Of a DNA stretch of 52,074 bases, positions 2,986 through 32,093 are shown in pieces (the stretch's first letter is position 1; every line of letters begins with the position of its first letter). Under the pieces are notes generated by a model, which worked only from the letters and a program-made list of their open reading frames with translations, was not told the DNA's origin and searched no databases. The stretch comes from Clostridia bacterium (GTDB lineage Bacteria > Bacillota > Clostridia > Christensenellales > CAG-138). The stretch lies in contig JAFXSG010000042.1 of assembly GCA_017525875.1 (NCBI GenBank), positions 1 through 52,074 on the forward strand, given 5' to 3'. Both the position numbers and the translations under genes were made by a program.

Positions 2986-4989
2986 ATGAAAAAACTGATC
3001 TGCATCATAGTCGTGCTTGCCATGACCTTGGCGGCAATGCCCGCTTCGCTTGCCGCGCCGGCAGCGGAGCCGAAGCTCATCGCGGATGACGCCGTGATCG
3101 ATACCGACGGCAGCGACGGCTACAGCGGCGACTACGTCGTCATCTACAACCCCGCAACGAGTGCGTCGGACAGCAAGTCCACGGGAAACATGTCCGGCCT
3201 TATCGAAACGGAGATCGAACCGCATCCGAGGACCGCGGAGGAAGCTTGCCCGGAACTTTACCGCATCGACGTCGACGCCGCTCTTATGCAGCAGGCAGCC
3301 GAAGCGGGCATCCCCGATAAACCGATCGCCGGCGAGGCCGTCAAGGATTCATTCGAAGTCGGCGACACCCGCAGTTTCATGATCCTCAACTATTCCCCGG
3401 ACGGTATGTTCATGCAGTTCAAGGTGCTCGCAAAGGGCGAGCACTGCTACATCTGGACGCCGACTTCGACCAATTCAAACGTGTATCCGCTCGATTCGAT
3501 CGATCCCGCGTACGCGCAGATGGCGGCGGATGAGTTCGACAGCAAGTTCCCGCTCATGCAGTCCTCCTTCGGCGAGCATTCCAACGGCACGTCGGGCGAT
3601 GGCAGGCTGAACATGCTCTATTACAACATCGACGACGGCTGGCAGCCTGGCCAGGGCTATATCGGCGGCTACTTCTACGCGCTCGATCTCTACCTGAACG
3701 GCATGCCCATCCTCAATATCGATACCTACCCCGGCGTGCATTACGTTGACGGGCAGGGCGTCGTTCATGACGACATCACCCGCTCCTTCGGCACGATGGT
3801 GCATGAATATCAGCATCTCATCCACTTCTCCGAGGTCGGAGCGACTGCCGAGACCTGGGAGAACGAGATGATGAGCGCCGCCGCGGAGGAGATCTGCTAT
3901 CCCGGTTCAAGCATATCGAGCCGCATCCAGAGCTGGACCAACTATTTCTATTCCGAGCATCAGGATTGGAACGATCCTCCTGCGGAGTTCGAATACATGG
4001 CGAATATGCAGCTGCATAACGGCTTCTCGATGTACGACTGGAACAACGATCTCGAGATGGACGACCTGCTCATCCTGTACGCACAGGTCTCCCTGTTCGC
4101 GCAGTACATCTACACGCAGTACGGAAACACGACCTTCCGCGGCATAATGCAGCAGATGAAAAACGGCAGCAGCTTCGTCCAGGGTTTTGAGAACGTGACA
4201 GGGCAGGGCATGGCCGAGTTCACCGGCAACTTCAGAACGGCGCTGACTGCGAACACCGCTCCGGACGTGCTCGGCGGCGTCTACGGCTTCCGCTTGCAGG
4301 AAGGCTACGATCCCTCCCAGTATCACGATATAGACAATCTCTACGATCTTCTCGGCCCCGTCGTTTTCACGGGCTCGAGCTGCTCCCTCAAGGGCGGCGG
4401 CGCGATCTGCGTCAAGCCCGTCGGCGGCGTATTCAACCCGCCCACAGGCGCGAACTCGGGCCTGCGCTATTACGGCGTGACCCGCACCGTGACCGAGCCG
4501 GAGCCCGTGCCGGTAGAGAGCGTCGATATCGATCTGCATGAGATAACGCTGCACGTAGGAGAAACGGCTCAGCTTACCGCCATCATCTATCCCGCAAACG
4601 CGAGCAGCTATGAGATCTTTTGGCAAAGCACAGCGGAAGGCGTAGCCACGGTGGAGAGCAGCGGCCTGAATGCCGTCGTGACGGCGGTTGCTCCCGGTAC
4701 CGCGCAGGTCTGTTTCGACCTGCACGATGCAAGCTATGAAAACGACATGCTGTTCTCAGCGTACTGCGTTGTCAATGTGGTCGAAAACGAGGATCATCTC
4801 CCCGGCGACGTAGACATGGACGGTGAAGTCACCATCTCCGACGCGCTGCTCGCGATGCGTTTCGCAATGGGCATCATAACGCTGACCGACCTGCAGCAGC
4901 AGATAGGCGACGTGGACGGGGACGGCGAGGTAACGATCTCCGACGCGCTGCTCATAATGCGCGCGTCGATGGGCATAATCGAGCTGTGA
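2986..4989 (+). CDS. Secreted zinc metallopeptidase (M30-like), tandem paralogue, with BIG2 and dockerin
   Basis: 667 residues; ATG at 2986 preceded by GGAGGG at 2973-2978. The signal peptide covers about residues 1-23 (after SLAA). HEYQH is at 273-277 and the probable third ligand is E294 (NEMMS). Long stretches are near-identical to the upstream protein, for example the segments around FKVLAKGEHCYIWTPTS and LNIDTYPGV, so this is a duplication. It keeps a BIG2-like domain (about 505-590) and the dockerin (about 603-667) but lacks the extra beta-sandwich domain of its neighbour. Role: extracellular proteolysis at a cohesin-type anchor; the substrate cannot be deduced. Confidence 0.8.
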   Translation: MKKLICIIVVLAMTLAAMPASLAAPAAEPKLIADDAVIDTDGSDGYSGDYVVIYNPATSASDSKSTGNMSGLIETEIEPHPRTAEEACPELYRIDVDAALMQQAAEAGIPDKPIAGEAVKDSFEVGDTRSFMILNYSPDGMFMQFKVLAKGEHCYIWTPTSTNSNVYPLDSIDPAYAQMAADEFDSKFPLMQSSFGEHSNGTSGDGRLNMLYYNIDDGWQPGQGYIGGYFYALDLYLNGMPILNIDTYPGVHYVDGQGVVHDDITRSFGTMVHEYQHLIHFSEVGATAETWENEMMSAAAEEICYPGSSISSRIQSWTNYFYSEHQDWNDPPAEFEYMANMQLHNGFSMYDWNNDLEMDDLLILYAQVSLFAQYIYTQYGNTTFRGIMQQMKNGSSFVQGFENVTGQGMAEFTGNFRTALTANTAPDVLGGVYGFRLQEGYDPSQYHDIDNLYDLLGPVVFTGSSCSLKGGGAICVKPVGGVFNPPTGANSGLRYYGVTRTVTEPEPVPVESVDIDLHEITLHVGETAQLTAIIYPANASSYEIFWQSTAEGVATVESSGLNAVVTAVAPGTAQVCFDLHDASYENDMLFSAYCVVNVVENEDHLPGDVDMDGEVTISDALLAMRFAMGIITLTDLQQQIGDVDGDGEVTISDALLIMRASMGIIEL

Positions 4990-15927: not shown

Positions 15928-16003
15928 TGGAGCTGGTGACGAGATTCGAACTCGTTACCTCGTCATTACCAATGACGTGCTCTACCTACTGAGCTACACC
16001 AGC
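15928..16003 (-). tRNA. tRNA-Thr (anticodon GGT)
   Basis: 76 nt including encoded CCA. On the minus strand: acceptor GCTGGTG/CACCAGC, D arm GCTC...GAGC, anticodon stem CGTCA/TGACG with loop TTGGTAA (anticodon GGT, reading ACC/ACT), T arm ACGAG-TTCGAAT-CTCGT, discriminator T then CCA. All arms pair perfectly. Confidence 0.97.
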
Positions 16004-29451: not shown

Positions 29452-29862
29452 ATGAACAAAAAGATCTATTTCGCGGGCTCGATCCGCGGCGGACGTATCG
29501 ACGCGTCGCTTTACAGAAGGCTGATCGAGTTTATGCAGCAGACCGATATCGTCCTCACGGAGCACATCGGGAACGCCGGGCTGAACGTCCTTGAAAGTGC
29601 GCTGGACGGGGAGATCTATGCCCGGGACACCGCCTTGATAGGGGAGTGCGATATTCTGATCGCGGAATGCACCTGCCCCTCCCTCGGCGTCGGGTATGAA
29701 CTCGCTTTCGCCGAGAAGCTCGGGAAACCCTGCTATATCTTTTATAATAAGGAAAGGGCAAATCTTTCGGCGATGCTCAAGGGGGATCCATACTTCAAAG
29801 TGATCCCCTATACCACAGAGGAAGAACTTTTTGCATCTGTACGGGAACTGCTGAACGATTGA
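29452..29862 (+). CDS. DNPH1/Rcl-like 2'-deoxynucleoside 5'-phosphate N-hydrolase (nucleoside deoxyribosyltransferase fold)
   Basis: 136 residues from ATG 29452 (AGGTCAGGG upstream); an in-frame upstream extension lacks a start signal and precedes the promoter. IYFAGSIRGGRIDASLY and the catalytic-Glu block CPSLGVGYELAFA closely match the mammalian DNPH1 pattern rather than typical lactobacillar deoxyribosyltransferases. The expected reaction is hydrolysis of the glycosidic bond of 5'-deoxynucleotides, cleaning the nucleotide pool. VLTEHIG is also characteristic. Monocistronic, divergent from pulA. Confidence 0.85.
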   Translation: MNKKIYFAGSIRGGRIDASLYRRLIEFMQQTDIVLTEHIGNAGLNVLESALDGEIYARDTALIGECDILIAECTCPSLGVGYELAFAEKLGKPCYIFYNKERANLSAMLKGDPYFKVIPYTTEEELFASVRELLND

Positions 29863-29928
29863 CGAACAGCGTACACAAATCCCGATCCCACGTCAAATAA
29901 TATATTTGCATAGAGACGCATAACTGTA

Positions 29929-29957
29929 TTGACAGTATTTGCAAAAAATGCTATACT
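29929..29957 (+). promoter_or_regulatory. Strong promoter of the leader-RNA/AAA+ gene
   Basis: Perfect -35 TTGACA (29929-29934), 17-bp spacer, TATACT (29952-29957). The predicted start near 29965 leaves a leader of about 265 nt before the coding region, much longer than for other genes here. Confidence 0.88.
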
Positions 29958-30010
29958 GAACATCTCTCAGCTTATTTACCCAACATCAAAACCTAAATCA
30001 AAAGTCAGGC

Positions 30011-30060
30011 GAACACGGCAATAATTTTGCCGCGTTTCAAGCCTTGTGTTCTTCTTTTCG
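30011..30060 (+). ncRNA. Leader hairpin I (terminator-like) in the 5' UTR of the AAA+ gene
   Basis: GAACAC (30011-30016) pairs with GTGTTC (30046-30051) and encloses a perfect GGCAA/TTGCC hairpin (30017-30021/30027-30031). The outer stem is followed by TTCTTTTC, so it could act as an attenuator. It precedes the second structured element by about 40 nt. Confidence 0.5.
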
Positions 30061-30092
30061 CTCTAAATCGGATCGAACCTTGAAAACTGAAT

Positions 30093-30184
30093 CCGCAAAC
30101 GCCTGCAGGCGGCCGGCCCGGGGAAGTACGCCATGAACCGCGTAAGCGGCGAGCGTGCCAAGGGAATAGCCTGAACGTTTGCGG
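30093..30184 (+). ncRNA. Structured leader RNA element II (unidentified, riboswitch-like)
   Basis: A 92-nt element closed by a perfect 9-bp stem CCGCAAACG (30093-30101) with CGTTTGCGG (30176-30184). Inside are CAGGC/GCCTG (30106-30110/30169-30173), GTACGC/GCGTGC (30126-30131/30153-30158, one G-U) and a GTAA-capped hairpin CCGC/GCGG (30138-30141/30146-30149). Unpaired purine-rich segments GGGGAA and AAGGGAATA flank the inner arm. I do not recognise it as any common riboswitch class. It ends 46 nt before the ATG, so it could be a cis-regulatory RNA or a processed small RNA. Confidence 0.6.
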
Positions 30185-30230
30185 GGAAATGATCTATTTA
30201 TGTTAATTATGCAGAAAGCGAGGTATGCTT

Positions 30231-32093
30231 ATGTGTAACAATAACAGATCAACGGCCGCCGAAATGTCGGCGATCGTAGCCCTTTCCGTCCGTCCGACGG
30301 ATTTCTTCTCGCACCAGGGTGACAAGGCTGCGGCAATAACCTGCGCCAGGTTCCTCAAATCCGCGGAGCTCCTTCCGGAGGGCAGCTATCTCAGCCTTCA
30401 GTTGGATCCTGAAAAGGACGGGAAAGTACCCGTGCATGCATTCGCAGGCGCGGGAGCGCGAACTACGATGAGCGACTTCAACTGGGTCTTCGGGCAGACA
30501 GCCGACGTCAGCGATCCGTCAGAGCCCCCGGCACTCGACCTGTTCGCGGATGACCGCCGTGTGTATGCCCTGCTCGATAAAACGCATTGGGACGGCACGG
30601 CGGCGGGGGAGGATGCGTGTCCTCAAAACTACGAGGAATACTTCAACAAATGGCTGAACCGCACCAATTGGCGCGACGACGTGTATTCGGAGCTCGTGAA
30701 CGGCGGGGCGATCATCCGCTTCACGCAGGAAGCCGGTCCCGGCAGGAGGGGAAGCATCCTCGTCAGCCTCCCGGGTGAAATGCCTCTCAGGATCCGCGCG
30801 ATGCTTTCGCTCGCGATCCCCAACATCACCGAAATGGAGCTCGCTTCCGCAGAGGAGATCAGCTCGGACACTATCCTGCTCCCGTTCAGGACGATGATCT
30901 TCGGCATGACCGGCATGCTGGCGTCAATGGGCGACAGGGCGGCGGAGAAAGAAGAGGAGCTCCCGTTCTGCGCCGATGACGACGATGACGATGAGATCAT
31001 CATCCCTATGGTCGACTCTGCGGACGATGAGAACAAAACGACCCGCGTGCCCAGGAGCGCTTTTGCTCCGCTTGAGGATCTCGAACTCAGCATCAGGTCA
31101 TACAATGCGCTCAAAAGGGCGGGCGTCAACACCTTGGGTGAGCTCTCCAAAATGACCGACGAGCAGCTGTTCGCTATCCGCAATATCGGCAGAAAGAACA
31201 TTGAGGAGATCCGCGCCAAGCTGGCCGGCGTCGAACTGCAGGAGACCGTAACGGAAACCGCCGCGGAAACTCTCGATGAGCTTATCGGTCTTTGCGAGGT
31301 CAAGGAGCAGGTGAGAAAGATCTCCGCTTTTGCGAGGATGCAGAAGCACATGGCCGAGCAGGGAAGGCCTGCCGCGCCGGTCGTGCTGAACATGGAGTTC
31401 GTCGGCAACCCCGGCACCGCAAAAACCACCGTTGCGAGGATCCTTGCCCGGATGCTCCACGATATCGGGCTCCTTCAGAGCGACGAGCTCGTTGAAGTCG
31501 GCCGCGCTGACCTCGTCGCCAGGTACGAAGGCCAGACCGCGGACAGGGTCAAGCACATCTTCGAATGTGCCAGGGGCAAGCTCCTTTTTATCGACGAAGC
31601 GTATTCGCTCGTTGAAAACGTGGACGGAGGTTTCGGCGACGAAGCCATCCACACCATCGTCCAGGAGATGGAGAACAACCGCGCTCACACGGTCGTGATC
31701 TTCGCCGGATATCCGGACAAAATGAAGGAATTCCTCACGAGGAACCCCGGCCTCAGGTCGCGCATCCCCTTCACCATCAGCTTCAGCGATTATTCGGTGG
31801 ATGAACTCACCGAGATCGCCGTTCTCGAGGCGAAGAAGCGCGGCTTCTCGGTAAGCGGCGAGGCTGCCGAAAAGGTCCGCCTCATCTGTGAGAAGGCGAA
31901 GCAGCACGCCGAAAACGGCAACGGCAGGTTCTGCCGCAACCTTGTTGAGAACGCGGTACTCAATTACGCGCTCAGGATGTTCGGCGCCTCCATCCCCGAA
32001 AACGCGGATTTCGTTCTCTCGGCGGAGGACTTCACCGTACCGAACACGCTCAGGGAAAACAAGAAGAACAAACCCATCGGCTTTGCCGCATAA
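30231..32093 (+). CDS. AAA+ ATPase (CbbX/SpoVK type) with an RNA polymerase alpha-CTD-like domain
   Basis: 620 residues from ATG 30231; GAGG ends 7 nt upstream, whereas the ATG at 30225 is too close. Residues 1-270 match nothing I know and end in an acidic run (DDDDDDE). Residues about 280-338 (LEDLELSIRSYNALKRAGVN to RNIGRKNIEEIRAKLAG) are a close copy of the RNA polymerase alpha C-terminal domain; R289, N292, G320 and K322 align with the DNA-contacting R265, N268, G296 and K298 of E. coli alpha. Residues 345-610 form a CbbX/SpoVK-type AAA+ module with Walker A GNPGTAKT (392-399), Walker B LLFIDEAY (D455, E456) and arginine-finger region NPGLRSRIPF. A DNA- or transcription-linked remodelling ATPase is inferred; the target is unknown. 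Confidence 0.85.
   Translation: MCNNNRSTAAEMSAIVALSVRPTDFFSHQGDKAAAITCARFLKSAELLPEGSYLSLQLDPEKDGKVPVHAFAGAGARTTMSDFNWVFGQTADVSDPSEPPALDLFADDRRVYALLDKTHWDGTAAGEDACPQNYEEYFNKWLNRTNWRDDVYSELVNGGAIIRFTQEAGPGRRGSILVSLPGEMPLRIRAMLSLAIPNITEMELASAEEISSDTILLPFRTMIFGMTGMLASMGDRAAEKEEELPFCADDDDDDEIIIPMVDSADDENKTTRVPRSAFAPLEDLELSIRSYNALKRAGVNTLGELSKMTDEQLFAIRNIGRKNIEEIRAKLAGVELQETVTETAAETLDELIGLCEVKEQVRKISAFARMQKHMAEQGRPAAPVVLNMEFVGNPGTAKTTVARILARMLHDIGLLQSDELVEVGRADLVARYEGQTADRVKHIFECARGKLLFIDEAYSLVENVDGGFGDEAIHTIVQEMENNRAHTVVIFAGYPDKMKEFLTRNPGLRSRIPFTISFSDYSVDELTEIAVLEAKKRGFSVSGEAAEKVRLICEKAKQHAENGNGRFCRNLVENAVLNYALRMFGASIPENADFVLSAEDFTVPNTLRENKKNKPIGFAA

Follow-up and report, generated by a model that had tools for sequence, protein, structure and literature searches.

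What kind of RNA is encoded between the promoter and the start codon of the alpha-CTD/AAA+ gene in contig JAFXSG010000042.1 of a Clostridia bacterium (assembly GCA_017525875.1), and what does it do there? The full 52,074-nt stretch that was analyzed, positions 1 to 52,074 of this contig, is referred to as the window. The gene encodes an RNA polymerase alpha C-terminal domain (alpha-CTD) joined to an AAA+ domain. An earlier reading of the sequence alone, here called the original prediction, proposed that its leader is a riboswitch or another structured RNA. The leader is indeed a structured RNA. Nothing points to a ligand, and a boxA-like element followed by a kink-turn hairpin points to antitermination instead, a reading that is preferred to a riboswitch because the same two parts are shared with the canT RNA of transposon Tn916. 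To judge from its sequence, the window RNA probably belongs to a class of boxA and kink-turn leaders of which canT is the best-studied relative. That it is a compact chromosomal canT-like antitermination leader is the best explanation at hand, and is given about an even chance of being correct.

Secondary structure of the leader

The element is 92 nt end to end (positions 30093–30184) and is closed by a perfect 9-bp stem, P1, formed by CCGCAAACG (30093–30101) and CGTTTGCGG (30176–30184). A base-by-base coordinate check and a duplex test of own versus swapped arms support both arms, and the stem is exactly as originally described. Inside P1, CAGGC (30106–30110) pairs with GCCTG (30169–30173) as P1b, from the predicted fold, the duplex test and a sequence check. 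The inner part, termed the core, was modeled on its own, since tails were misaligned in a MAFFT alignment of whole leaders and that alignment was therefore rejected. Two covariance models were built, R1 from four cores and R2 from 70 cores; the window core (30116–30167) scores 72.1 bits with R1 and 68 bits with R2, its sequence being among those used to build both models.

Three covarying helices make up the core, in agreement with the inner helices and GNRA-type GTAA loop seen earlier. P2 pairs 30117–30119 with 30162–30164. It is followed by an unpaired GGGGAA (30120–30125) opposite CAA (30159–30161). The P3 helix pairs 30126–30131 with 30153–30158, and the P4 hairpin, CCGC-GUAA-GCGG (30138–30149), pairs 30138–30141 with 30146–30149 under the GUAA loop. 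Of the 841 paired cells in an alignment of 69 distinct cores, 95.6% hold standard pairs, and two-sided changes occur at 11 of the 13 pairs. The covariation score of 0.497 compares with 0.159 for shuffled and at most 0.114 for slid alignments. This alignment was fitted to the model, and its rows had also passed the model, which favors pairing; RNAalifold was therefore run on an unconstrained MAFFT alignment that comprised 20 of these rows. It recovered P2, P3 and P4, and 10 of their 12 pairs show two-sided changes.

The junction between P3 and P4 carries a kink-turn signature. In a standard simple kink-turn, as defined in PMC4316175, a C and an NC helix flank a 3-nt bulge and, next to it, a G.A and an A.G pair. 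In its predicted fold the core displays this textbook signature: P3 is the C-helix, P4 is the NC-helix, the bulge CAU is followed by G1b and A2b (30132–30136), and G2n and A1n lie on the other strand (30151–30152). The window sequence at this site is CGCCATGA (30130–30137), 52 nt from position 30078. The G and A that follow the bulge are present in 70 of 70 rows of the core alignment (A4), and strict GA/GA on both strands in 68 of 70. The search pattern by which 51 of the rows were chosen required GGGGAAG, GCC, GAGC and RCCAA, so the invariance of these columns, including the kink-turn 3' GA and the GGGGAA loop, is partly a result of selection. P2, P4, the 19–105 pair of P3 and the kink-turn 5' GA are free of this requirement, and of the 19 rows that came from other searches, 17 have GA/GA.

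Folding energy alone is unremarkable (z of -0.24 for 29965–30231 and -1.72 for 30080–30190). The element stands above chance because of comparison, that is, through covariation and the pairing of its own P1 arms. The window P1 pairing is equalled or beaten by fewer than 1% of arm pairs swapped between members. Own arms are in the best 5% for only 9 of 62 members, all of them non-mobile; extending the downstream stretch lowers this to 4 of 61. P1 is a trait of window-like members and not class-wide, and as a class-wide stem it was rejected by the swapped-arm test. The covariance search first proposed was to look for compensatory changes in the 9-bp stem and in the inner helices upstream of the same gene family; the inner helices and the gene association, described below, bore this out.

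A scan of 29850–30300 against Rfam 15 gave no match even at E up to 10, and no match above cut-off was found at the cores of the relatives scanned. The class is real, structured and covarying and has no Rfam 15 family, in line with the earlier statement that it was not recognized. The MRSC-65-2 motif, compared by its published description, was not taken as the window RNA because it is said to form a single long stem and to occur across diverse phyla (PMC11109978).

Distribution and gene contexts

In the source genome the leader is single-copy; other R1 matches there have E values of only 0.48 and 0.70. A DNA search of 11 genomes of the genus found the inner element just 5' of the orthologous gene in two others, G006 and G009 (G and L numbers are our own labels). 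By protein search of 103 genomes of the family, six genes matched over most of their length: those of the window genome, G006, G009, G073 (in two pieces), G076 and G079. The core precedes all six, ending 53–143 nt upstream. Six AAA-only homologue loci (L043–L048) have no R1 match. Together these two observations would fit autogenous control, in which the alpha-CTD/AAA+ protein binds its own leader, as the original prediction had suggested for the encoded protein. The same core precedes many unrelated genes, including mobile-element operons, so that control by the encoded protein is very unlikely and such binding does not account for the RNA. These genes are of the Cys-rich VLP, RepA, MobV and recombinase types in many members on mobile elements, and excisionase-like and integrase-like (recognized by eye) in some; others encode an AAA_2 ATPase or a small protein family that has no Pfam match. 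Members were assigned as mobile or non-mobile by us from their neighboring genes.

R1 matches are found at 13 places in 12 of the 103 family genomes at E below 0.001; when E is relaxed to 1, 26 of these 103 genomes have a match. At the level of the order, 10 of 396 genomes have a match at E up to 0.1, some by chance. Weak R1 matches in L082–L084 were taken as chance, no core being visible in the unoriented sequence. R2, with an E limit of 0.01, matches in 15 of 391 genomes of the class and in 8 of 398 of the phylum, the window genome being counted in each. Pattern scans of genome and viral contigs gave at least 118 plus 19 stretches. R1 matches at E up to 0.1 were present in 62 of these 137, and the other 75 were not taken into further analysis. 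Alignment A4 has 70 rows, 51 from the pattern scans and 19 found otherwise; it omits the weak L173, L216 and L218, as well as L124, L143, L189, L190, L200, L207, L221 and L231, for which a kept locus lies on the same contig or has the same local sequence. A weak match in an Erythrobacter metagenome-assembled genome was excluded. Among the matches listed, the pattern-scan members that were kept are all Bacillota, mostly Lachnospiraceae, Oscillospiraceae and other Clostridia, with one Paludifilum. One copy of the core is on a Campylobacter jejuni plasmid.

The 53-nt core thus recurs on chromosomes, on plasmids and on elements resembling integrative and conjugative elements (ICE) or integrative and mobilizable elements (IME). 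Many of the copies adjoin recombinases on ICE/IME-like elements, as might be expected if the sequence acted as DNA, e.g., as a recombination site, an origin or a repeat. The two-sided compensatory changes, the GA/GA kink-turn and the boxA-like sequence argue for an RNA, and the window itself holds a single-copy chromosomal member beside non-mobile genes; a DNA-level element is considered highly improbable.

In another of its gene contexts, the non-mobile RNA precedes genes for small similar proteins, encoded 3' of the core in L088, L092, L160, L170, L196, L201 and L214. They are 149–208 amino acids (aa) where complete and start like PTISVYIRGEIADIGYYRNW; the two that were analyzed have no Pfam match. 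A gene cluster in genome G075 (L085, 3453–13501) begins with an RNA that combines core, boxA and a pemK-like part; it encodes a HerA/DUF87-type ATPase and an 1807-aa protein that has two AAA domains and a trypsin-like domain. This cluster looks like a defense or conflict locus. IMG/VR contigs contain the Paludifilum core and one of the Oscillospiraceae cores again, in the same local sequence (L231, 4970–5020, and L122, 6803–6853; L221 and L193), and those copies may therefore sit on prophage-like or other mobile DNA. Phage records gave no match to the single mobile-form query used, L062.

The boxA-like element

The sequence CCTTGAAAACTGAATCCG at 30078–30095 begins 38 nt 5' of the core and is identical at 14 of 18 positions to CATTGAAAACTGAATAGT, a ribosomal RNA (rRNA) spacer sequence located 126 nt before the 23S rRNA in all three operons of genome G132. 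This genome also carries a core. No 23S match was available for comparison in the window genome and five others searched. Among 68 of the 70 A4 rows, 43 have a match of at least 12 of 18 to CATTGAAAACTGAATAGT within 90 nt 5' of the core, as opposed to 3.6% of shuffled sequences and 2 of 65 downstream controls. The position is also conserved: in 42 of the 43 the match starts 31–44 nt 5' of the core, with the form CCTTGAAAACTGAAT. The name boxA is given on the basis of this resemblance. As described in PMC12691694, boxA binds NusB and S10. In L196, L088, L139, L054, L058 and L059 a second boxA-like sequence of the type ACAACTGAATA was noted by eye soon after the promoter and 5' of the terminator hairpin.

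Relationship to Tn916 canT and pemK RNA

The canT RNA, situated between orf8 and xis of Tn916, is reported to be a proven processive antiterminator that allows read-through of intrinsic terminators in B. subtilis when no other gene of Tn916 is present (PMC11658703). The sequence of pCF10, which harbors a Tn916-type element, was used here for canT. In pCF10, the counterpart of the active 452-bp canT fragment starts with TTGAAAACTGAAT and continues to CGCCATGACC-TATCTT..AAGATA-GCGAGCG. R2, which was built without canT, scores higher in canT than anywhere else in 50 kb of pCF10 (15.6 bits, E 0.045; the next match has 9.1 bits). At the same hairpin in canT homologues, R2 matches have E values of 0.0025 in L254/L255 (C. 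difficile), and 0.01 and 0.13 in L253 and L257 (E. faecium).

A second known RNA is found within canT. The pemK RNA (Rfam RF02913) matches there with 55.0 bits (pCF10, L235 41922–41822, minus strand), and in the homologues with 68.9 (L253), 55.1 (L257), 45.3 (L256) and 34.8 bits (L254). The first three bases of the pemK match in canT (AUAAUGAUAC...) are the S3 loss-of-function site. No paper stating either the presence of pemK in canT or its overlap with S3 was found in the open-licence PubMed Central literature. According to PMC11658703, the S3 mutation has little effect in a 400-bp canT fragment, a 291-nt fragment is inactive and a 341-nt fragment active, and interpretation based on structure is termed complicated.

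The same kind of hairpin lies upstream of nearly all the pemK RNAs and canT-type elements that were compared. Sixteen elements were compared, 11 pemK loci from genomes that have a core and five canT-type elements; L266 was omitted as its stretch has no pemK start, and L273/L274 and L275/L276 are near-identical pairs. A CGC[C/G]NN[A/G]A .. GAGCG hairpin is present upstream in 15 of the 16 and in 3.0% of shuffles, counted with a regular expression that was shaped after the same sequences had been seen. In these 15 elements the hairpin is 60–93 nt after the boxA-like match. Among the 16 elements, 11 have a boxA with GAAT at its end, and the other five have a looser match only. The window leader has both traits, a boxA-like element at its 5' end and the kink-turn hairpin CGCCNNGA / GAGCG about 50–95 nt from boxA. 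In G075 the two RNAs are joined: a 58-bit core is followed by boxA and, 90 nt on, by a pemK-like RNA of 32.3 bits, just below the cut-off of 34.8. A pemK RNA above cut-off is present somewhere in 19 of 35 genomes with a core, and only in G075 is there a match within 500 nt of the core. The window RNA is not classified as canT itself because it has no pemK part; its membership is based on the shared module.

Terminators and alternative readings

The predicted sigma-70-type promoter sequence was confirmed, with TTGACA (29929–29934), a 17-nt spacer and TATACT (29952–29957), and matches 11 of 12 consensus bases with a TG-extended -10. It is followed by the terminator-like hairpin that had been placed at 30011–30060. 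The hairpin is present, with a U-rich tract at 30045–30060, and in the fold prediction its stem lies slightly 5', at 30007–30044. A simple terminator scan of the window did not report it; in our own scan it is covered only as part of a longer stretch, at -19.0 kcal/mol. It is doubtful that this hairpin is a working terminator in the window. It is the counterpart of stronger terminators that regularly accompany the non-mobile RNAs. Of 23 non-mobile relatives, 19 carry such a hairpin 5' of the core with an energy between -27 and -49 kcal/mol, its end lying 13–69 nt from the core. For all members, terminators at -16 kcal/mol or better are found upstream in 28 of 69 as compared with 23 of 207 shuffles. 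One type of apical loop, GGGAGRAGUNURYCC / GGGAUAACUGUAUCC, recurs in them and is present in 18 of the 23 hairpins called versus 3.7% of shuffles (e.g., L040, L085, L139, L147, L177, L184, L196 and L214), the window being included by a loose match, and the motif and its regular expression having been drawn up from the same sequences that are counted. The loop may be a protein-binding site of its own.

These terminators and their loops bear on a different reading of the leader, a conditional attenuator. Here the upstream hairpin would be the terminator, its apical loop would bind a protein or ligand, and boxA and the kink-turn would be a sensor or protein platform that decides read-through in the manner of a riboswitch without making the polymerase processive. 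Kink-turns are indeed described in several riboswitches (PMC4316175).

Aptamers are usually 5' of their terminator, whereas the window element is 3' of it. The gene contexts are too diverse for one ligand, a terminator of at least this strength (-16 kcal/mol or better) precedes the core in only 7 of the other 45 members, and the hairpin of the window itself is weak. A regulated attenuator, as was first proposed, is possible; the complete scheme of conditional attenuation seems unlikely.

Several observations weigh against the canT-like antitermination reading. The terminator-like hairpin is upstream, not downstream, of the proposed antiterminator, and the recurrent apical motif suggests regulated attenuation before the RNA is made. 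An enrichment of terminators downstream, considered as a signature of antitermination, is not clear in the 350 nt analyzed (11 of 65 vs 27 of 195 shuffles at -16 kcal/mol or better; 22 of 65 vs 46 of 195 at -8 kcal/mol). The R2 score for canT is weak, since 50 kb of pLS20 gave a partial match of 13.8 bits outside conAn2, and the canT-type element L256 has no R2 match. The conAn2 antiterminator RNA of pLS20 was ruled out as a relative, with no R1 or R2 match. The window has the GGGGAA/CAA loop, P2 and a perfect P3, while canT has no GGGGAA/CAA loop; conversely, the window leader lacks the pemK part and has no RF02913 match at the cut-off of 34.8 bits. A 162-bp deletion is reported to abolish canT activity (PMC11658703). 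This deletion starts 3' of the kink-turn hairpin and leaves boxA and the hairpin intact, so these two parts are not sufficient in Tn916.

The lack of clear downstream enrichment would be expected if the boxA complex shields or matures the leader, against Rho or RNases or for folding, as in rRNA, and does not cause read-through of intrinsic terminators. The resemblance of boxA to an rRNA spacer is consistent with such a role, as is the description of one Bacillota kink-turn RNA as a protein platform (PMC9723947). The reported read-through of intrinsic terminators by canT, which has the same module, speaks against it, and shielding or maturation is judged quite unlikely as the sole function.

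Proposed mechanism and implications

In the antitermination model we infer the following events. Transcription would start at about position 29964, and the polymerase would first pass the terminator-like hairpin, which may be weak, regulated or leaky. Those polymerases that go on would transcribe boxA and then the kink-turn hairpin. Host elongation factors would be recruited to the passing polymerase, NusB-S10 by the boxA sequence and an L7Ae-family protein such as YlxQ or YbxF by the kink-turn. Thus modified, the polymerase would become resistant to terminators through the 1.9-kb alpha-CTD/AAA+ gene. Both YlxQ and YbxF are described as binding kink-turns (PMC9723947). In the window genome an L7Ae-family gene is found directly after nusA and ylxR; its score of 20.9 bits is slightly below the Pfam cut-off of 22.1. 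YlxQ is a possible kink-turn partner of the leader.

A wider form of this model is put forward only tentatively. In it, boxA and the kink-turn hairpin are a general loading site for processive antitermination in Bacillota, with NusB-S10 and either YlxQ, encoded beside nusA, or YbxF. The site would be widespread in mobile elements (canT, pemK RNAs and ICE/IME leaders), and its compact chromosomal forms would control AAA+ genes. The orphan pemK RNA and YlxQ would then share a common function.

If the canT-like reading of the window RNA is correct, one short RNA module joins the antiterminator of Tn916, the pemK RNA of Rfam and leader RNAs on the chromosomes of gut and rumen Clostridia, a link that was not found in the open-licence PubMed Central literature. 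The canT RNA gains a concrete anatomy of boxA, kink-turn hairpin and pemK part, and both the host-factor hypothesis and an unexplained RNA class become testable.

Downstream gene and neighboring loci

The alpha-CTD/AAA+ gene (30231–32093, forward strand) encodes 620 aa from the ATG at 30231 and is preceded by the ribosome-binding site AGCGAGG (30217–30223). The product has an RNA polymerase alpha-CTD and a SpoVK/CbbX-like AAA+ part (Pfam PF03118, PF00004, PF17866). It does not reach the NCBIfam cut-offs for SpoVK (251.7 of 423 bits), CbbX (197.8 of 459) or EccA (191.8 of 467). Defense-system labels were not adopted, as there are only weak partial matches on the AAA and alpha-CTD parts, the best with 24.3 bits. 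Five flanking genes were scanned and none is mobile: they encode an exonuclease, a pullulanase-like amylase, a nucleoside deoxyribosyltransferase, a dockerin/adhesin protein and a DUF2804 protein. The sole Rfam match above cut-off in the window is a tRNA-Thr (GGT) at 15928–16003 on the minus strand.

Comparison with known systems

The rRNA-operon boxA is similar in sequence, CCTTGAAAACTGAAT in the window class versus CATTGAAAACTGAATA in the G132 spacer. It differs in that the window boxA-like element precedes a kink-turn RNA and not rRNA, and that binding of NusB-S10 is only proposed. The OLE RNA is, like the window RNA, a Bacillota kink-turn RNA and is described as bound by the L7Ae-family protein YbxF (OapC) (PMC9723947); such binding is proposed for the window RNA, which has no OLE match. 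The conAn2 RNA of pLS20 is likewise reported to be an antiterminator RNA located in a leader, on a mobile element from Gram-positive bacteria (PMC8955417). Its region, for which the position 3082–3466 was deduced from a gene gap, also lacks an Rfam match. The pemK RNA has the same kind of kink-turn hairpin upstream in the canT/pemK elements, and there the hairpin is outside the Rfam model.

The closest comparison is with canT. The window element is about 107 nt (30078–30184) and canT is 452 nt; the window element is also behind a terminator-like hairpin and on a chromosome. Both start with a boxA-like sequence, and canT has the kink-turn hairpin CGCCAUGACC..GCGAGCG 62 nt after its boxA. A possible closing stem, CGATAAG/CTTATCG, can be seen by eye in canT, and some mobile members of the window class precede excisionase-like genes, as canT does.

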